Of a stretch of DNA of 64,000 nt, positions 12,041-53,455 are shown one piece after another (positions within the stretch are counted from its first letter, which is position 1; each line of letters starts with the position of its first letter). Source of the stretch: Pelagomonas calceolata (Eukaryota; Sar; Pelagophyceae; Pelagomonadales; Pelagomonadaceae); assembly GCA_918797485.1 (NCBI GenBank), contig CAKKNE010000005.1, forward strand, positions 1,922,001-1,986,000. Direction: 5' to 3'. Position numbers and translations under genes: made by a program. The notes beneath the pieces were generated by a model. It was given only the letters and a program-made list of their open reading frames with translations, had not been told where the DNA came from and did no database searches.

Positions 12041-14668
12041 ATGGCTTCTGTAGCGCCAGAAGCAGGCGAGCTGGCGCCGGAAGGCAAGCTGGCGCCGGAG
12101 ACGAAACGACCGTGGAAGCTCTGCAGCGAGACCATGCATGTCAAGGTCATCGTGGTCGTTATGACGGTCGTCATGGCGGCGTTCGAGGTCGGCGACCGCA
12201 TGCTTGTGGTCGACTTCGTCGTCTCCTTCTTCACGGTCGTGTCGCTGGATCTCTTCGAGCGGGTCGGGGAAGGGGGCGCGATCCTGGGCGTGCTCCTGGC
12301 GGTGTCTTGTGTGGCCGCGGTAGTCTGGGGGTCGCGGAAGATCGAAGCCATGGAGGCCCACGCCGTCCTGTTCGACGACGCGTCCAAGAAAATCTTAGGC
12401 GAGGCAACGATCGGGCCGCCAAGTCTCAAGGCGCCCGACTTGCGGCAGGCATCCGATGATATCGACGAGCTCATGGGCGCCGCCGCCGCGGTCTTTCCAG
12501 CGTTCAAGACGGAGGTACTGCAGCGTCTCGTGGCGGACGGCTCGCGCTACGAATGCAACCTGAAGACGCGGGAGCGCGTGCGCGAGAAGGTCAAGATTGA
12601 GTACAACGGCGATGCGGCAAAGATCAAGGATTTATGCCGCGGTTTAGTCGTCGCGGAGACGCTGCCGGCGCTGGAAGCCTCGTGTGCCGCGCTCCAAAAG
12701 CTGGACAACGTCGAGATCCTGCAGGTCAAGAACCGGCTCCGCGATCCGCCGGAGGGCGACGGGCCCACCGCGAGCGGCTATCGCGACCTGAACGTCAACA
12801 TTCGCTTCCAAGGGCATATATGCGAGGTCCAGATCATCCACAGCGAGTTACTGAAGCTTAAAACGAACCAGGCTCCTGTCTACAACTTGGTACGGTCCCT
12901 GGGCCTCGTCGGACCGCTCCCCGCCACGACGGCGCCAGAGACGCGCCGCCGGCCTCCAAAGCGCACGAGGGCGGCGCTGGCAGTGCTCCGAATCTTCATG
13001 GCGCGGTTCGCCGCGGCGCAAGGCATGAACTACGTGACGAATGGCTATGGGACAGACGTGGGACTTGCCAACGCGGGCCAGGTGCTGCTGCGGACGATGA
13101 CGGCGCCGGGGTTGGTTTATGCCGCAGTGATGGCGCCGCCGTATTTTTTCTGCGCGTTCCTACTTCTCCGTGATCTCCTCGCGCAGTTCGATTCGACGCG
13201 CTGGCGCGTCGCCGCCGTCGCGGCGGTCTGGGTCCTGCAATTTGCCAGTGAGTCCGGCTTGGCGCTTTACACAGCCATGCAAAACCTCGCGGACGGCTCG
13301 CCCCTTGCGCTTATCTTCGCGGCGCTATATATCTTCGGGTGTGTTTTCGTCGTCCCGTGCCTAGCGGCAGCAGCGGCCGTCTCGCTGCGCCGCAGGGGCC
13401 GGAAAATGCACGTGTCCCGGGTGGCACTCCTGTACCAAAAATATCTTGGATTGCGAGGCTTATATTATCGCTGGAAGATCTTGGGGCTCCAATATGCGAC
13501 GGTCATACTGCAGGCGTTTGCAAAGCTCCCCGAAATGGGCGCGCTCGTGTCGACCCAATCGCATTTCGGGGACAACGCTGTCGTCGACCTTAAAGGCGCG
13601 CCATCGCCGCCAGCCTACTGGTTCTTCTTCATCATGCTCGCCATCAACAGCCTTTATCCGGGTGCCCTGTACTACTATGCGGCGCGCTCCTCGTCCCGCG
13701 ACGCGGACACCGTGGCGGCCCTCTGCGACGTGACGCTCGACCTCTCATATTCCATGGGCTGGGTATTCGTGACCAAGCAGTTCTTTCGTCTCTGCCGCTG
13801 GACGCCCGTCGAGGTCTTCCAAACCCTTGGGCTCTTCACGCCGTGCGTACACCTCCTCTTCACGTGTAGGGCGGTCGAGGCGGCGGCGGCGGACCAGAAG
13901 ACTCCAACGACGGCGAAGCAACCGTCGAAAAAGGCGTGCGCCAGCCACGCACTGCTCTCTGTCGCCACGCTGGCGGTGATTATGGTCGCGTCCTGCCGGG
14001 ACAGGTATCCTTTCAAGGCGGAGAGCCGCTGCAACCCATGCGAGTGCGAAGGATCGGTCCTCACGTCGTGCAAATTAGCGGGCGTGGCGCGGGTCTGGAG
14101 CCTGGACCTGAGCGACAAGGACATCACGGAGGTGCGGTCCGACGCGTTCAAAGACATAAAGTACACGCTCCTCAACGTGTGGCTGGACGACAATAAAGGA
14201 TTGATGTCACTCCCACCCGACGTCTTCGACGAGCTGGACGTCCTGATGAACCTCTCGCTCATGCGCACGGGCGTCACGGAATTACCGAGCCTCGCGGGGA
14301 AAAAGTACTTTGAGAACCTTTTCCTCGACGGCATGAACATCTCGTCCATACCGGGCGACACACTCGCTGGTTCGCGGCTGCGTTTCGTCCATGCCACGAA
14401 TATGCCGAATTTCCAGCTCGACGCCGCCACGTTCGCCAGGACGAGGCAACTCGAGGCCGTCTGGATCGGCGGCTCAAATACGAACTGCGTCGAGCTCCCG
14501 CACGAGGCTGCATGCGTCGACCACCGGTGCCGCTTCATCGAGGAGCTCGACGCCGAATACTTCATCTACCGCGAATTCCAAAAGGACACCTGCGAGGCGT
14601 CCTACGATGGCGCGCCGGGCTGCGGCGAAATACCGTGCCTGCCGCGCTCGTGCTTCGTTCCGTCGTAG
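12041..14668 (+). CDS. RelA/SpoT-like domain / multi-pass membrane / leucine-rich-repeat fusion protein, copy 1
   Basis: 875 aa from the ATG shared with the tandem copy (MASVAPEAGE). Two membrane helices lie near 33-65 and 78-97. Residues ~140-285 resemble a RelA/SpoT nucleotidyltransferase domain: DLCRG (198-201), QVKNRLRDPP, SGYRDLNVNI (245-254) and HICEVQIIHSEL (259-270), where canonical enzymes have GYQSLH and EVQIRT. A basic linker (RRRPPKRTR) leads to about six to eight membrane helices (310-620). After a last helix (~638-652) comes a Cys-rich cap (RCNPCECEGS), about five leucine-rich repeats (680-820) and a Cys-rich C-terminal cap. I infer a surface receptor with an intracellular RelA-like domain; catalysis is unproven because the canonical synthetase signature is degenerate. 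Confidence 0.78.
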   Translation: MASVAPEAGELAPEGKLAPETKRPWKLCSETMHVKVIVVVMTVVMAAFEVGDRMLVVDFVVSFFTVVSLDLFERVGEGGAILGVLLAVSCVAAVVWGSRKIEAMEAHAVLFDDASKKILGEATIGPPSLKAPDLRQASDDIDELMGAAAAVFPAFKTEVLQRLVADGSRYECNLKTRERVREKVKIEYNGDAAKIKDLCRGLVVAETLPALEASCAALQKLDNVEILQVKNRLRDPPEGDGPTASGYRDLNVNIRFQGHICEVQIIHSELLKLKTNQAPVYNLVRSLGLVGPLPATTAPETRRRPPKRTRAALAVLRIFMARFAAAQGMNYVTNGYGTDVGLANAGQVLLRTMTAPGLVYAAVMAPPYFFCAFLLLRDLLAQFDSTRWRVAAVAAVWVLQFASESGLALYTAMQNLADGSPLALIFAALYIFGCVFVVPCLAAAAAVSLRRRGRKMHVSRVALLYQKYLGLRGLYYRWKILGLQYATVILQAFAKLPEMGALVSTQSHFGDNAVVDLKGAPSPPAYWFFFIMLAINSLYPGALYYYAARSSSRDADTVAALCDVTLDLSYSMGWVFVTKQFFRLCRWTPVEVFQTLGLFTPCVHLLFTCRAVEAAAADQKTPTTAKQPSKKACASHALLSVATLAVIMVASCRDRYPFKAESRCNPCECEGSVLTSCKLAGVARVWSLDLSDKDITEVRSDAFKDIKYTLLNVWLDDNKGLMSLPPDVFDELDVLMNLSLMRTGVTELPSLAGKKYFENLFLDGMNISSIPGDTLAGSRLRFVHATNMPNFQLDAATFARTRQLEAVWIGGSNTNCVELPHEAACVDHRCRFIEELDAEYFIYREFQKDTCEASYDGAPGCGEIPCLPRSCFVPS
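12059..12358. repeat. 300-bp tract identical to 15134-15433
   Basis: The two tandem genes are base-for-base identical over this stretch by eye, while sequence on both sides differs, also at silent sites. This is best explained by recent gene conversion or purging by unequal exchange. Confidence 0.85.
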
Positions 14669-15115: not shown

Positions 15116-17755
15116 ATGGCTTCTGTCGCACCGGAAGCAGGCGAGCTGGCGCCGGAAGGCAAGCTGGCGCCGGAGACGAAACGACCGTGGAAGCTCTGCA
15201 GCGAGACCATGCATGTCAAGGTCATCGTGGTCGTTATGACGGTCGTCATGGCGGCGTTCGAGGTCGGCGACCGCATGCTTGTGGTCGACTTCGTCGTCTC
15301 CTTCTTCACGGTCGTGTCGCTGGATCTCTTCGAGCGGGTCGGGGAAGGGGGCGCGATCCTGGGCGTGCTCCTGGCGGTGTCTTGTGTGGCCGCGGTAGTC
15401 TGGGGGTCGCGGAAGATCGAAGCCATGGAGGCCTATGCTGTAAAATTTGACGACGCCTCCGCAAAAATCCTTAAAGACACAGTGAATATCGGGCCGCCAA
15501 GTCTCAAGGCTCCTGACTTGCGGCAGGCGTCCGATGACATCGACGAGCTCATGGGCGCCGCCGCCGTGGTTTTCCCAGCGTTCAAGACGGAGGTACTGCA
15601 GCGCCTCGTGGCGGACGGCTCGCGCTACGAATGCAACCTGAAGACGCGGGAGCGCGTGCGCGAGAAGGTCAAGCTCGAGTACAACGGCGACGCGGCGAAG
15701 ATCAAGGATTTATGCCGCGGCCTCGTCGTCGCGGAGACGCTGCCGGCGCTGGAAGCCTCGTGTGCCGCGCTCCAGAAGCTCGCCGACGCGGGCGTCGTCG
15801 AAATCCTCCAGGTCAAGAACCGGCTACGGGATCCGCCGGAGGGCGATGGGCCCACCGCGAGCGGCTACCGGGATCTCAACGTCAACATTCGCTTCCAGAA
15901 GCATATATGCGAGGTCCAGATCATCCACAGCGAGTTACTGAAGCTTAAAACGAACCAGGCTCCTGTCTACAACTTGGTACGGTCCCTGGGCCTCGTCGGA
16001 CCGCTCCCCGCCACGACGGCGCCAGAGACGCGCCGCCGGCCGCCAAAGCGCACGAGGGCGGCGCTGATAGTGCTCCGAATATTCATGGCGCGGCACGCCG
16101 CGTACGTGGGATGGAACTACGTGGTGCAGGGCTATGGGGCGGACATGGGGCTCGTCGCACCGGGCCAGGTGAAGATCAGGCTGATGACAGCGCCAGCCCT
16201 CGTCTACGCGGCCGCCATGGCGCCGCCGTATTTATTCTGCGCGTTCCTACTAATCCGGGATCTTCTTGCGCAATTCGACTCGACGTGCGCGCGCTTCGGA
16301 GCCGTCGCAGCGATTTGGTTCCTCCAAGTCATATTAGGGGCGGGAGAAACACTGTACATGGGTGGAGCGAATCTCCAGCACGGCACGCTCGGTGCGCTCG
16401 GCTACGCGGCGCTATATTTCTTCAATTGGCTATTTGTCGTGCCGTGCCTGGCGGCGGCGGCGGCCGTCTCGCTGCGCCGCGGACGCCGCAAAACGCACGT
16501 GTCCCGGGTGGCGCTCCTGTACGAAAAGTATCTCGGTCTTCGTGGGTTGTATTACAGATGGAAGATCCTCGGGCTCCAGTACCTCACGATTCTCCTGCAA
16601 GCGGTGACGAAGCTCCCCGATGTGGGCGCGCTCGTGTGGACCCAATCGCACTTCCAGTACAGCCCACTCGTCGACCTGGGAGGCGCGCCGTCGGCGCCGG
16701 CCTACTGGTTTTTCTTCATCATGCTTGCCATCAACAGCCTTTATCCGGGCGCCCTCTACTACTACGCGGCGCGCTCCTCGTCTCGCAGCACAGACACCGT
16801 GGCAGCCCTCTGCGACGTCACGCTCGACCTCTCATATTCCTTCGGTTGGATATTCGTGACCAAGCAGTTCGTTCGTTTCTGCCGCTGGACCCCAACCTCG
16901 TTCTTAGATTCGCTCGGTCTCTTCACGCCAGTCGTGCACTTGTTGTTCACGTGTAGGGCAGTCGAGGCGGCGGCAGCTGACGAACGACGCCCCGCAACGG
17001 CGAGACATCCGTCGAAAAAGGCGTGTGCAACCCACTCGTTGCTCTCTGTCGCCACGCTAGCTGTCATTATGGTCGTGTCCTGCCGGGACCGGTACCCGTT
17101 CAAGGCGCAGAACCGCTGCAGCCCGTGCGAATGCGAGGGATCGGTCCTCACGTCGTGCAAGCTCGCCAACGTGGCGCGCACATGGACCCTGGACCTGAGC
17201 GACAAGGGTATAACGGAAGTACGACCCGAAGCGATGCGGGACGTGAGGTCCACGCTCTACAACCTGTGGCTGAGTGATAATGAGGGATTGATGGCGCTCC
17301 CGCCCTACCTCTGCGAGGACCTGGAAGTATTGATGACGCTCTCGCTCATGCGCACGGGCATCACGGAGTTACCGAACCTCGCGAACTTGAAATACTTCGA
17401 GAATCTCTTCCTCGACGGCATGAACATCTCGTCCATACCGGGCGACACATTCGCGGGCTCGCGGCTGCGCTTCGTCCACGCCACGAATATGCCGAATTTC
17501 CAGCTCGACGCCGCCACGTTTGCCAGGACAAGGCAGCTCACGGCCGTCTGGATCGGTGGCTCAAATACGGACTGCGTCGCGCTCCCGCACGAGGCGGCCT
17601 GCATCGACCAACGCTGTCGCTTCGTCTCGGAGCTCAATGCCGAATCATTTCTCAACCGCATCTTCAAGAAAGGTCCCTGCTTGTCGGAATACGACGGCGC
17701 GCCGGGCTGCGGCGCAATGCCGTGCTTCCCGCAGTCCTGCTTGACTCCATCGTGA
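15116..17755 (+). CDS. RelA/SpoT-like domain / multi-pass membrane / leucine-rich-repeat fusion protein, copy 2
   Basis: 879 aa, the tandem paralogue of the gene at 12041 with the same architecture: two N-terminal helices, RelA/SpoT-like domain (QVKNRLRDPP, SGYRDLNVNI, HICEVQIIHSEL), a multi-helix core, a Cys-rich cap (RCSPCECEGS), LRRs and a Cys-rich C-terminus. It differs by a 3-residue insertion (LADAGVVE) before the QVKN motif and by many substitutions in the membrane core and the exposed faces of the LRRs. The RelA-like and N-terminal parts are nearly unchanged, which suggests a conserved intracellular role with diversifying ectodomains. The ATG at 15116 was chosen by homology to copy 1; the frame is open further upstream. 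Confidence 0.78.
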   Translation: MASVAPEAGELAPEGKLAPETKRPWKLCSETMHVKVIVVVMTVVMAAFEVGDRMLVVDFVVSFFTVVSLDLFERVGEGGAILGVLLAVSCVAAVVWGSRKIEAMEAYAVKFDDASAKILKDTVNIGPPSLKAPDLRQASDDIDELMGAAAVVFPAFKTEVLQRLVADGSRYECNLKTRERVREKVKLEYNGDAAKIKDLCRGLVVAETLPALEASCAALQKLADAGVVEILQVKNRLRDPPEGDGPTASGYRDLNVNIRFQKHICEVQIIHSELLKLKTNQAPVYNLVRSLGLVGPLPATTAPETRRRPPKRTRAALIVLRIFMARHAAYVGWNYVVQGYGADMGLVAPGQVKIRLMTAPALVYAAAMAPPYLFCAFLLIRDLLAQFDSTCARFGAVAAIWFLQVILGAGETLYMGGANLQHGTLGALGYAALYFFNWLFVVPCLAAAAAVSLRRGRRKTHVSRVALLYEKYLGLRGLYYRWKILGLQYLTILLQAVTKLPDVGALVWTQSHFQYSPLVDLGGAPSAPAYWFFFIMLAINSLYPGALYYYAARSSSRSTDTVAALCDVTLDLSYSFGWIFVTKQFVRFCRWTPTSFLDSLGLFTPVVHLLFTCRAVEAAAADERRPATARHPSKKACATHSLLSVATLAVIMVVSCRDRYPFKAQNRCSPCECEGSVLTSCKLANVARTWTLDLSDKGITEVRPEAMRDVRSTLYNLWLSDNEGLMALPPYLCEDLEVLMTLSLMRTGITELPNLANLKYFENLFLDGMNISSIPGDTFAGSRLRFVHATNMPNFQLDAATFARTRQLTAVWIGGSNTDCVALPHEAACIDQRCRFVSELNAESFLNRIFKKGPCLSEYDGAPGCGAMPCFPQSCLTPS
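15134..15433. repeat. 300-bp tract identical to 12059-12358
   Basis: Partner of the conversion tract in copy 1. A second nearly identical block of about 160 bp (12828-12990 against 15906-16068) covers the end of the RelA-like domain. Confidence 0.85.
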
Positions 17756-17920
17756 GGTGTCTCGGAGCGTCGTGGCGCACGACACTTCCTCTGCCCATAC
17801 TCCCCCTTCTAGAAACGACCCCGCCGAGGGGTCTCCTGGCGTACTTCCTGCGTGCCGTCGCGCACGGCGACGCAGTTCCCCCGAGTCTTCCCCCTGTCCA
17901 TACTTCCCCGTCGTTAACTA

Positions 17921-17953
17921 GATCGGGGGGCAGCACGCCTCACGCGGCATGCT
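17921..17953 (+). repeat. Left terminal inverted repeat
   Basis: 22 bp are identical to the reverse complement of the right end, then a 3-4 base mismatch and a shared GCATGCT. Confidence 0.8.
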
Positions 17954-18438
17954 GGAATGGCCCTAGGCCGTCCCTAGGCGCTTGGTAGGGTGCGATGCGG
18001 CCTCGTAATGCGTCCCCGGGGGCGGCCAGGACCCCCACGCGACGGGTAGACAAGGGTAGGGAGCTATAGGGCTGAGTTATCCCAGCGCGATGCGGGACGA
18101 GGGGACGGCCCCCAGTGGCTACGTACAACTGCTGGAGGCAAGACTCGGAGCCTATGGGAGTCTACCCCAGCGGTTCTAGGCTGGGTCCCAGCTCCCGAAA
18201 GCTCCCCTGCCGGGGTAGGCAGGCCTGTACGACCGTAACTAGGATTTCATTTACTATGATTTCAAAACGGGTATTTCGGGCGGGCGCGGCCTTCAGCGGT
18301 CATTTAAACAGCCCCAACAGCCTAACCGCGGCTGCGGGCGCGTGTTTCGACAACTGCCAGCACCACTGCGACTCGCGCGCAGCACAGCAAGGCTGCCCCG
18401 CCGCGTGCACAACTCTGCCACCTAGCTCTCCCAGAGTG

Positions 18439-19986
18439 ATGTCGTCGGCGAAGAGCAAATCTCGCCACGGCACCCTCACAGGCGTGTTCAATGGCGCCTT
18501 CGGCGGCGTTACTACTGGCGACGTTCTTCTAACACCTTCTGGCAAGGTCAACATAACCATCAACGGCATCAAGCTGCAGGCCTGGAAACGAGCGAAGGAG
18601 ACTATCGAAGCAGCAGTAAGGCGTGAGATCGCGGAGTATCTGGACACGAAGTTCGAGCGGCTGGTGATGGAGAGCGAGAGCGACGAGAGCGAATCTGAGG
18701 ATGAGGTCGCGCCCTTACCCGCGGCACAGCCTGTCCTTACAACTCCACGATTGCGCAACACAGACAAGAAGTACTCGCCCACAAAGACCTTGAGACCTGG
18801 AGAGCTGAAGCGCCTGCAGGGAGGGCAGGCAACTGGTCGTCGTCGCACTGGAAGCCCAAAAGCTGTGTCGATGACGCCGGACACGCTGACAGACCTCTGC
18901 CACGCCATCCTGCCGCCCGACCAGTTCGAGGTGCTCGAGCCGACGCTCAAGAAGTCCATCGATATGTTAGGCGCCACCGTGGAGACGGTCGACGAGATGG
19001 GCTACGACAGGTGCAGCTCCGCGTCGAATCTCGACGCGCCTTCTAACCGAGCGCTTCATCGAAGAGGCAGCACGCCATCAACGCGACGCGGCCATCGACG
19101 CGATCCCGCGCTGTCGAGACGACTTCGCCCGCGCAGGCGGCGTACCCTTGCGCGCGTCGTCGTGCCGCTCATCCTACGTGTTCTAGAGATCGCCAAGGCT
19201 GGAACGTCGGACCGAGGCGGCGTTTATCGTCTAATTGCCGCTGACCGCGCGATCCAGTCCTTCGTGCTCGAGGAGGACGCGCCGCGCAACGAGGCCCCTC
19301 CTGTACTCATCGCGATCGCGGACGCGTACCGCATCGCGATGAAGACCAAGGACAACAAGTCGGCACTCCAGCTGCTGTCGCTGCTCGCGCCCTACATGCT
19401 CGACAACGACATCATCGATCTGTGCAGCGACAACGTCGACATCAGGCCTGGTGTGCACGTCCGCGTGCTTAAGCCAGGCGGCCGGGGCCACCAGTACCGA
19501 CGCGCAGTGATCCTGTCGGGCAACGCCGAGGACGGCTTCAAGATCCAGTACTACGAGTCGAGCGAAGCGGTCCAGAAGGCTCGTTTTGCGACGAAGGCCC
19601 AGGGCGCCGCTGCCGTCGCCGCCGACGGCGACGCGACGCAACTCGAAACGGAGGACAACGTCCCTCGTGACCGCATCAAGGTCAGCGACGCCGTCTACTG
19701 CACGAGACGCCAGTGCTGGCTCGCTCGAATCCATGCTGCACGGCATTACCCTGGTGCTTTACCTGTCAACGAGACGTGGACGCGAACGCGTCTCTATGGG
19801 AAGCGTGCGGAAATGCTCGCACGTGCTCTTCGACCAGGTGGTGGGGAGATAGTCCTCGCCGACGCCTCGAACAGGAACGCCGCGAGGGGCGTCAAATACC
19901 TCCGTACCGACACACGAAAAGCGCTGTGGCGTCGTCTCGTACCAGCACCGCCACGCGTCCGCGCGGGTCGACCGAAGGCGGCGTAA
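18439..19986 (+). CDS. Transposon ORF1, function unknown
   Basis: The frame opens at a GTG (18115), with in-frame ATGs at 18154 and 18439; 18439 (MSSAKSKSRHGTLTGVF) looks the most protein-like start and gives 515 aa. An N-terminal helical segment with an acidic Ser/Glu patch (ESESDESESEDE) is followed by a basic region, a helical middle (LALLQ-type repeats around LLSLLAPYMLDNDIIDL) and a possible SH3/Tudor-like strand set (GVHVRVLKPGGRG to FKIQYYESSE). Between about 19025 and 19150 this frame turns into Arg-rich sequence while another frame reads better, suggesting two compensating indels or an unrecognised intron. No nuclease motif is visible. Confidence 0.5.
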   Translation: MSSAKSKSRHGTLTGVFNGAFGGVTTGDVLLTPSGKVNITINGIKLQAWKRAKETIEAAVRREIAEYLDTKFERLVMESESDESESEDEVAPLPAAQPVLTTPRLRNTDKKYSPTKTLRPGELKRLQGGQATGRRRTGSPKAVSMTPDTLTDLCHAILPPDQFEVLEPTLKKSIDMLGATVETVDEMGYDRCSSASNLDAPSNRALHRRGSTPSTRRGHRRDPALSRRLRPRRRRTLARVVVPLILRVLEIAKAGTSDRGGVYRLIAADRAIQSFVLEEDAPRNEAPPVLIAIADAYRIAMKTKDNKSALQLLSLLAPYMLDNDIIDLCSDNVDIRPGVHVRVLKPGGRGHQYRRAVILSGNAEDGFKIQYYESSEAVQKARFATKAQGAAAVAADGDATQLETEDNVPRDRIKVSDAVYCTRRQCWLARIHAARHYPGALPVNETWTRTRLYGKRAEMLARALRPGGGEIVLADASNRNAARGVKYLRTDTRKALWRRLVPAPPRVRAGRPKAA

Positions 19987-22028
19987 AAATTGACACGCAG
20001 GCGGAGAACTGTTGCTGTACGTACTGCCGAGACCTGGGCTTCCAAGCCTTCGACGAGCTGAGGGAAATCGTCCAAGATCTGGACGACGCGCACACGCGCG
20101 CACACGTCAGCGACACGAGCGTTCCTCGCCTGCCTCACGGCCTTCTCGACGTGCTTACAGAGCGTTCGAAAGCGCTGGAACGATTCATGAAGTACGACTT
20201 CGCCCGGAAGCTGAAAACGGCTTCCCCCAATCCACGGCTTTGTATTACCTTTGCCCTCACTACAGCTAATGATAAAAGCTTCTCCAAGGAGTGTACACAC
20301 GGCCGGAGTGACGATACCGTCGGCGAGATGCCGGCGGACTTCTCTGCCGTTTGCGGCGGGCCGCCGAAAATGTCCAACTGGAACGACGACTGCTGCCTGG
20401 GCGTTCACTCAAATTGCAGGAGGGAGGCAGGGCAAGTCATGCTCTGCAACGACTGTAATCTTGTGGCGTGCAAGCAGTGCATAGGGTGTACTACAAATGA
20501 TTGGTCGAAAGACGACGAGGCAGTGATTGCCTTCTCCCAGATCCGTGCCACCATGGGCGACGCGGACGAGCTCCGGATCTTAGAGCACGGCCACACGGAG
20601 GCCGGCGAAGGAAAGTGCGTCGTGGATATGAATTGTGGCCAGTCGAAGCAGGACTTGAGTCGAGATCGCGACCAGGGACATGACCATGAGTGTGCCGACG
20701 AGATCTTTTCTGGGCTCGAGCGCCGCTCGAACCTGTGTGGAAATCAACTAGTGAGTCGCATCGACGGATCTCCGACGGATTTCCTCGCAGGCCCGCGCGC
20801 TGGCGATGTCAACGTCGTGATGGCCATCGACCGGACGAAGGAGCAAGAGAAGAAAGCTCCACCTCTTCCACGCGTCCATAACTACGCGCACTGCACCTTC
20901 AACGTCGATGGGAGCATCACCTGTCGTGAATGCTTCGGTTTGGGCCGAGGCCTCACGTACACCGAGGCGCAGCTCGCGATACACGACCAGCACAAGGTCG
21001 AAGATGCAATCGCCACTGCAACGATGGAGTCCGACGCGGTCGTCCCGAAGACCCAGCTGTCACATGCGCAAAAAAGCGAGGAACGTGCGGCGAAGAGGCG
21101 GAAGAAGTCGGCGCGACTCGACCACGCGGACGCGCGGCGTGCCGCTGACGCGGCGGCTGTAGCTCTGGAGCAAGGCGAGGACGTAACGCACGAGTGTGGC
21201 GCGTGCAAGCGGCGGTTCATGACGTCGGGTGGTCTTCTGAAGCACGCGGCGACATGTGCTGGAAAGAGGCGCTCGAGTCGTCGCGGAGTGCACGAGCTCA
21301 TGTCAGACCTAGCTGTCGAGCAGGACGCGGACCTGGAGCGCGAGCGGCGCGAGCTGGCGCGTGTCGAGGTCGACCTGCCCGTTGAGACAAGCGGCCTTTC
21401 GTTTACGGAAGATGTGGTGTCCGAGGTGAGCGGCGCGGCCGCCGCGTCGCTGAAGGTGGGCAAGGGCTACGTCCTCCGGAGGGTCGGCTCGACGGACGTG
21501 GGCAACGACGCCGGGCAGGCCGTCGCCACCGCGTGCGCAGCTGCCCGAGGAGACACGATCACATACGTACTGGAACGGCCGGCGCCACCGCTACCGCCTC
21601 ACGGCTGGGCGCGGAAGGCGCTCCGAACAACGAGTAGACCACGGTACACGGTCGAGCAGAAGGCCTTCCTGGACAAGCACTTCGAATCTGGATTGAAGGG
21701 CGGCGAGCGCATGCGGGACAAGAAGGTGTGGAAGCTCATGAAAGCTGAGTTCGGGCGGCGCGTTGGCGAAAACGATAAGTCCCTCGTCCTCAAGCAGTCC
21801 CAGATCCGAGGCTACTTCTCGCGTCGGGCGGCGGCGCTCAAGGGCAGCGCCGTGGCCAAATTTTTAGAGGATGGAGATGCTGCTGGAGACGGCGGCGACG
21901 GTGGTGATGACTATTCCAAGTACAAGGTTAGCGAGCTGCGGGAGTTCCTGGTCCGTCGAGGGCTCGATTCGGACGGCTTGAAGCAGGCATTGGTCGATCG
22001 ACTGCGCGAGCACGACGGCACGGCCTGA
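19980..22028 (+). CDS. Transposon ORF2: zinc-finger / PDZ-like / homeobox-like / SAP protein
   Basis: The frame is open from 19713, but its first ATG is at 20187. It has no start of its own and probably continues ORF1 by frameshift or splicing near 19700-19980. In order it shows: a Cys-rich region (CCCTYCRDLGF; CNDCNLVACKQCIGC) probably binding zinc; a C2H2 finger, CGACKRRFMTSGGLLKHAATC-like, near 21196-21255; a PDZ-like segment (KGYVLRRVGST to GDTITYVLERP); a homeodomain-like helix set (TVEQKAFLDKHFESG to QIRGYFSRRAAAL); and a C-terminal SAP motif (YKVSELREFLVRRGL). These are DNA-binding and chromatin-associated modules, consistent with a mobile-element protein. No DDE, tyrosine-recombinase or polymerase signature is apparent. 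Confidence 0.55.
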   Translation, partial: GVKIDTQAENCCCTYCRDLGFQAFDELREIVQDLDDAHTRAHVSDTSVPRLPHGLLDVLTERSKALERFMKYDFARKLKTASPNPRLCITFALTTANDKSFSKECTHGRSDDTVGEMPADFSAVCGGPPKMSNWNDDCCLGVHSNCRREAGQVMLCNDCNLVACKQCIGCTTNDWSKDDEAVIAFSQIRATMGDADELRILEHGHTEAGEGKCVVDMNCGQSKQDLSRDRDQGHDHECADEIFSGLERRSNLCGNQLVSRIDGSPTDFLAGPRAGDVNVVMAIDRTKEQEKKAPPLPRVHNYAHCTFNVDGSITCRECFGLGRGLTYTEAQLAIHDQHKVEDAIATATMESDAVVPKTQLSHAQKSEERAAKRRKKSARLDHADARRAADAAAVALEQGEDVTHECGACKRRFMTSGGLLKHAATCAGKRRSSRRGVHELMSDLAVEQDADLERERRELARVEVDLPVETSGLSFTEDVVSEVSGAAAASLKVGKGYVLRRVGSTDVGNDAGQAVATACAAARGDTITYVLERPAPPLPPHGWARKALRTTSRPRYTVEQKAFLDKHFESGLKGGERMRDKKVWKLMKAEFGRRVGENDKSLVLKQSQIRGYFSRRAAALKGSAVAKFLEDGDAAGDGGDGGDDYSKYKVSELREFLVRRGLDSDGLKQALVDRLREHDGTA

Positions 22029-22213
22029 ATTTTGATGTCGCGGCGGGACGGGACGGCGCGGCGGCTCGTCACGGGTAGTCTGTGACTAACCACACTACTC
22101 CATTATGTACCGGGAAGCCCCGGGAGGCCGAACTAGGGTACTTACGGCGTCCAGCCGGCTCGGGGAGCCTCCCTGAGGCATCGGGGCTCCGTTCCTACAA
22201 ATCGAGCATGCTG

Positions 22214-22261
22214 TTTGAGGCGTGCTGCCCCCCGATCTTTGAGGCGTGCTGCCCCCCGATC
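22214..22261 (-). repeat. Right terminal inverted repeat, tandemly duplicated (2 x 24 bp)
   Basis: TTTGAGGCGTGCTGCCCCCC plus GATC occurs twice head to tail (22214-22237 and 22238-22261). The left end has one copy. Confidence 0.85.
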
Positions 22262-22279
22262 ACTACCCATCAAGTCTAC

Positions 22280-50529: not shown

Positions 50530-50869
50530 TGTTCTGGTGGCTACTTGCAGCCGCACAAATGCAGCAATCTCAGCTGCAACCGCCGTGGATCGCGGAGATG
50601 CGCATGCGGAGAGCTTGCTAGTGTCTTACATCGCTAGCTCATTAACCCTGCAGACGCCGTGGCGAAGCGTCCGGGGTCCACACTAGTGATCCCAGACACA
50701 ATAAGCGTATCTCTCTCTCGTGAAGAAGCTTATGGCGGTCGCGCGGATGACGCGAGAGCACCAAAGGAGCTCATGAGACTCGGACGCCGACGCGCACGAC
50801 GTCGACGCGAGACGTCGACGCGACAAATTGAGACGTTCTACGAGGCATTATACAACTTTTGGGGGGGGT
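50530..50869. promoter_or_regulatory. Intergenic region upstream of the mutarotase
   Basis: 340 bp. The motif copy is at 50617, and the remainder is 3' UTR of the next minus-strand gene with a G8 run at 50861. Confidence 0.45.
50617..50638 (+). promoter_or_regulatory. Palindromic upstream motif, copy 7
   Basis: GCTAGTGTCTTAC, then ATC, then GCTAGC. It lies 88 bp upstream of the mutarotase ATG (minus strand). Confidence 0.6.
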
Positions 50870-53060: not shown

Positions 53061-53455
53061 CTTGTATGCGGCCTCGCGCGCCAACGTTGTCAGTATGGCA
53101 CGCGCCAAGGCTCGATGGCTGGCGGACTTGGCTTTTCAAAATAGAGCCGTCGTGTGAGCGTATAGGAAAGGAACAAGAGAAGCCCTCCTACTGTATTAAA
53201 CGTGTATTGAGAATGCGTGCTAGCGGCCTGTAAGACACTAGCAAGCCAGCCAGCCATGAGCGCGTGCTCGCGTTGATATCGGGCTGAAATTTGCAGATCA
53301 CACCGCAAACAGCATCGCAACCTTGACTTATACATCGCCTCGCCACGTTGCCAACGTATCCGCGAACAACGAGTCAAAATAGCTGCAAACACAAGTGTAG
53401 TAGGGCAAGCATCATCGACTGTGGCGGCGCATTACTGCCTTAGGGACTCGTAACT
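53061..53455. promoter_or_regulatory. Divergent promoter region with palindromic motif
   Basis: 395 bp between divergent ATGs, relatively AT-rich, with a motif copy at 53219 in reverse orientation. Confidence 0.45.
53219..53242 (-). promoter_or_regulatory. Palindromic upstream motif, copy 8
   Basis: The reverse complement of the consensus: GCTAGC, GGCCT, GTAAGACACTAGC. It lies 160 bp upstream of the minus-strand gene and ~215 bp upstream of the plus-strand gene. Confidence 0.6.

Follow-up and report, generated by a model that had tools for sequence, protein, structure and literature searches.

We analysed a 64,000-nucleotide stretch of the Pelagomonas calceolata genome (contig 5, C5:1922001-1986000; the window, whose coordinates are used below) and describe here an element at 17921–22261. 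With a probability of about 0.88 we regard it as a copy of a cut-and-paste DNA transposon that is internally deleted and non-autonomous and whose relatives encode a multidomain DDE/D-type transposase. The element starts 161 bp past the stop of a plus-strand frame of 946 amino acids and lies 14 bp past that of a convergent WDR19-like gene. A 22-bp sequence, GATCGGGGGGCAGCACGCCTCA, is present at both ends in inverted orientation (17921–17942 on the plus strand and 22240–22261 on the minus strand) with 22 of 22 positions identical and no mismatches, so that the termini read GATC...GATC, and ACTA stands on either side as a target-site duplication (17917–17920 and 22262–22265). The perfect repeat and the flanking ACTA are as claimed in a preliminary description of this DNA, made from the sequence. 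That description also reported about 11 bp of similarity further inward, which is present as a weaker resemblance to about position 17956, but it pairs with an inner copy of the 3' terminus belonging to a tandem duplication that had gone unreported. The right end of the element consists of a 24-bp unit, TTTGAGGCGTGCTGCCCCCCGATC, repeated head to tail (22214–22261); the first unit (22214–22237, minus strand) is the inner copy, the second (22238–22261) contains the 3' terminal inverted repeat, and the ACTA duplication borders the outer unit. With the inner copy as 3' partner, the extended arms measure 37 nt at 89% identity.

The longest perfect inverted repeats spaced 0.5–10 kb apart in the window both belong to the element (23 and 22 bp), the next longest being GCC repeats of 19 bp. 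Inverted 16-mer pairs number 45 in the window, 15 in the element and 30 elsewhere, mostly in GC-rich or simple sequence; 20 first-order Markov sequences contained 0–4 such pairs each.

Related copies in the genome

A search of the genome (32,445,274 bases in 8 contigs) with the whole element returned the element itself, an 856-bp relative on contigs C1 and C5, a short one on C2, and on C1 a single 33-bp match that is part of a high-copy repeat, CCTGTGTGGAAATC. The 856-bp copy is 81% identical to the element over element positions 10–301 and, at the 3' end, 73% identical over 122 bp, and it occupies the same place in both duplicated regions of C1 and C5. These regions (near 295 kb) are 99.7% identical over 9,972 aligned bases, and the excerpted account of the RCC100 assembly (32.4 Mb, six nuclear and two organelle contigs) describes contigs 1 and 5 as having duplicated ends (PMC9481584). 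We also scanned the genome for the terminal pattern, allowing up to 3 mismatches, and obtained 12 matches, compared with 0 for the reversed pattern used as a control. Three are in the window, four in the two 856-bp copies, two in a 93-bp element on C2, one at C5:1539233, and two on C3 and C6. The match at C5:1539233 is a lone family terminus with no partner seen close by; those on C3 and C6 differ at 3 positions, have no partner within roughly 100 bp, and were set aside. Counting the duplicated 856-bp pair once, there are three two-ended insertions, and all three (3/3) have exact 4-bp target duplications, ACTA, ACGC and ACGT. Inverted termini, a target duplication of constant length, and further copies or derivatives elsewhere in the genome, the marks of a terminal inverted repeat (TIR) DNA transposon, are thus all present.

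It is very improbable that the locus is a host gene lying between chance inverted repeats. The finding of a single coding copy in the genome would fit such a gene, but related termini with 4-bp duplications occur at two other independent loci, the 856-bp copy resembles the element inside its termini as well, and the empty control scan and the inverted-repeat statistics also contradict it; we therefore reject it. Two circumstances that the preliminary description had named as fatal to an element, a lack of any other copy in the genome and a long host gene running across the termini, were not encountered: the element and terminal-pattern searches found related copies elsewhere, and no single host gene spanning both termini was seen among the open frames and Pfam matches of the window.

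Coding content of the element

Two overlapping plus-strand open reading frames had been described, and we find them at 18076–19986 and 19671–22028. In the first, coding-like composition begins at the ATG at 18439, and we refer to 18439–19986 as ORF1. We searched ORF1 against Pfam, NCBIfam, its own genome and viral contigs. There were no matches in Pfam or NCBIfam, and no second coding copy was found in the genome, where the two other matches are the ends of the 856-bp copies, upstream of the ATG. ORF1 and the second frame, ORF2, may be one gene, with ORF1 as its N-terminal part, joined through an intron or a frameshift.

The part of ORF2 at 19989–22028 can be aligned to a transposase relative, P0004, introduced below. 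It includes a SAP DNA-binding domain (21912–22019; PF02037, E = 2.8e-12), beyond which ORF2 has no Pfam matches at E ≤ 1. Pfam matches under the cut-off point to a C2HC/C2H2-like zinc finger (CX2CX12HX4C) at 21192–21257. A Cys-rich region (20007–20480) falls within the part aligned to P0004 residues 24 to about 193, and its equivalent in P0004 gives very weak PHD and C1 matches (E of 9.2 and 4.6). A PDZ-fold domain is assigned at 21354–21581 by alignment with modelled residues 714–806 of P0004, and a putative homeodomain-like helix-turn-helix at 21645–21842 is our own reading, with no database match, of helices predicted in P0004. Sequence searches of Pfam and the PDB with the PDZ and helix-turn-helix pieces of the window protein produced nothing meaningful, and the PDZ assignment is therefore one of fold; the models support a PDZ module in the transposase relatives.

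Relatives from ocean metagenomes and the missing core

The preliminary description saw no recognisable transposase in the element. This holds for Pfam and NCBIfam, where no transposase match was found, but no longer once metagenome relatives and predicted folds are taken into account. Three protein searches with the ORF2 family yielded ocean metagenome relatives P0001, P0002 and P0003 (from ORF2), then P0004 and P0005, and then P0006; further relatives may exist, because only about 8,000 candidates, those sharing most words, were scored per search. Outside one 22-residue gap, all 678 aligned residues of P0001 agree with those of the window protein. P0002 shares 97% identity with it over 503 residues and runs upstream into a core that is absent from the window copy. 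The alignment of P0004 (966 amino acids) with the window protein falls into two parts separated by a gap: the first, at 41% identity, covers residues 24 to about 193 and extends a little past them, and the second, at 48% identity, covers residues 455–951. About 260 residues are therefore gone from the window copy, in frame, at 20516/20517. Missing are P0004 residues from about 194 to 454, including the first two candidate catalytic aspartates, D334 and D446. The third acidic block of the core, GHTEAGEGKCVVDMNC (20589–20636), is retained according to the alignment with relatives; the block HTEAGEGKCVVDMNC is kept in the window copy, and most of its positions are conserved across the relatives. 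In P0006 the catalytic candidates are D47 and D154, with E186, E189 or D195 as possible third residue. No core-bearing copy was found in the assembly, where searches with P0004 and P0006 match only the window locus, with the exception of one weak match on C4 at the SAP end of P0004.

The core of the relatives is probably RNase H-like and of the DDE/D type, to judge from predicted folds. The likeness to Mos1 mariner transposase and retroviral integrases is at the level of fold, with 4–13% identity in the matches listed and no sequence match, and mariner differs in its TA target duplication, as given in the excerpts consulted. The AlphaFold model of P0004 (5 sequences) is poor (predicted local distance difference test, pLDDT, 45.8; predicted template modelling score, pTM, 0.27), and we used only its PDZ stretch and predicted helices. 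A Foldseek search against viral structures gave no matches at E ≤ 0.001. We reject a viral origin or viral carriers: pattern scans of viral contigs with A4, P0006 and ORF1 returned 23, 27 and 5 stretches respectively, none of which is a relative by tblastn.

Proposed mechanism and the residual protein

The preliminary description offered a new DNA-transposon family or a derelict carrier of DNA-binding genes; the element appears to be both a DNA transposon and such a carrier. It does not lack a transposase by nature: the probable DDE/D-type core was deleted here from an otherwise open frame and is kept in relatives. We infer that a full-length transposase would use its finger, helix-turn-helix and SAP modules to bind the GATCGGGGGGC... 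termini, that its RNase H-fold core would cut at these termini, and that joining of the element to its target with a 4-base stagger would give the 4-bp duplications. The in-frame deletion would have taken out the first two of the catalytic aspartates without closing the frame, and the window copy, which retains its termini, would be movable only with enzyme supplied by a full-length copy. The residual protein (Cys-rich region, third acidic block, C2HC finger, PDZ, helix-turn-helix and SAP) is probably catalytically dead. Binding to the termini or to chromatin may persist, and the protein could compete for termini and act as a repressor. KP-type P elements similarly combine an internal deletion that removes catalysis with retained termini, although their transposase is presumably unrelated.

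That the gutted gene is retained as a functional regulator, either a transposon repressor or a host-domesticated DNA-binding protein, and is not decaying, seems unlikely to us. Consistent with retention are open frames spanning about 3.6 kb whose GC content by codon position is coding-like, the in-frame nature of the core deletion, and the identity of P0001, and a precedent is offered by internally deleted Drosophila P elements, thought in the excerpted source to stop invasions (PMC12393704). However, GC-rich DNA readily yields open frames, the P0001 identity may reflect no more than the same recent locus, and the relatives were compared at the protein level, which gives no ratio of nonsynonymous to synonymous substitution (dN/dS); moreover, ORF1 and ORF2 do not share a frame, and a repeat has inserted into the gene. 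For the deleted transposon itself, P0002 (near-identical, core-bearing and from metagenomes), the gutted copy and the tiny derivatives together constitute a natural system for studying the death of a transposon family in a small, gene-dense genome.

Comparison with known superfamilies

Helitrons and Cryptons have neither terminal inverted repeats nor target duplications, and both features are present here. KDZ/Zisupton elements have 8-bp target duplications, compared with 4 bp here, and were set aside by duplication length alone. From excerpted descriptions, Kolobok and piggyBac elements duplicate TTAA, in contrast to ACTA, ACGC and ACGT, and Ginger elements have 5'-TG...CA-3' termini, in contrast to GATC...GATC, and we reject these groups; KolobokP, a Kolobok lineage, is described with 3–5-bp duplications, compatible in length with the 4 bp here.

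The Sola superfamily requires closer consideration. As described in the portions of the sources consulted, Sola elements have a DDD transposase, 4-bp duplications, sizes mostly of 2–9 kb and variable terminal sequences (PMC10741241, PMC3627910), and in duplication length, size range and variable termini Sola1–3 resemble the element. That it is a pelagophyte member of Sola, and no new lineage, nonetheless appears rather doubtful. The 4-bp duplications in every two-ended insertion and a possible D-D-D core fit Sola, but four-base duplications also occur in other groups, and Sola2 duplications are described as AT-rich (AWWT; ATAT, AAAT, ATTT), which ACTA, ACGC and ACGT are not all. The PDZ/SAP architecture is unmentioned in the excerpted Sola descriptions, against which the comparison was made. 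We assign the element to no superfamily.

A tentative reading, to which we give clearly less than even odds, is that pelagophyte-like ocean algae harbour an undescribed lineage of eukaryotic DDE/D transposons, perhaps of superfamily rank, that makes 4-bp duplications and encodes a transposase combining an RNase H core, PDZ, helix-turn-helix and SAP; its PDZ domain would dock to a C-terminal peptide of the host or of the transposase itself, and the window copy, a natural variant free of catalysis but with docking and DNA-binding modules retained, would be a trans-dominant repressor. Judging by titles and the openings of abstracts, no paper in a literature search for transposase with PDZ in DNA transposons seems to describe the pairing. 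Should PDZ docking direct the choice of target or the assembly, it would offer a novel way to steer transposition, and transposase lineages with no Pfam model are easily overlooked in algal genome annotation.

An introner-like repeat within ORF2

Within ORF2 the high-copy CCTGTGTGGAAATC repeat is represented by a 60-bp copy (20732–20791, plus strand), inside 66 nt (22 residues; 20727–20792) that are absent from P0001. P0002, 3% diverged, has the 22-residue insert, whereas P0001, closer to the window protein, does not, so that its absence from P0001 is likely due either to splicing or to a precise loss. Boundaries deduced from the P0001 protein allow GC...AG and not GT...AG. A 27-base pattern from the repeat, scanned genome-wide with up to 3 mismatches, gave at least 1000 matches (485 + 515), and its reversed control gave 0. 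We examined the 30 best-matching loci, which are not a random sample and include the window copy. The repeat has termini CCTGTGTGGAAATCAA and TTGATTTCCACACAGG; among these best matches the 3' terminus is found at 25 of the 29 non-window loci, an exact 6-bp duplication flanks 18 of the 25 two-ended copies, and the longest copies are 203–208 bp, giving a full length of about 205 bp. The 60-bp copy in the window has no clean 6-bp duplication in its flanks. An excerpted report describes a peak of intron lengths near 210 bp in Pelagomonas calceolata and likens it to introner elements (PMC9481584), and the CCTGTGTGGAAATC repeat is probably the introner family of this species. Like the introners of Aureococcus and Pelagomonas it is a small TIR element within a gene, its length of about 205 bp being close to the 210-bp peak. 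Because it differs from the transposon in its termini and in having 6-bp rather than 4-bp duplications, it is not evidently mobilised by it.

Other features of the window

To the left of the element, tandem paralogous gene ends at 14213–14666 and 17300–17753 share 83% identity across 454 bp. The left-flank paralogue (C5:1936213-1936666) stops short of the insertion point and offers no empty site. The window also contains a further non-simple perfect inverted repeat of 18 bp, GCTTGCTAGTGTCTTACA, at 50613–50630 and 53229–53246, with its arms 2.6 kb apart.
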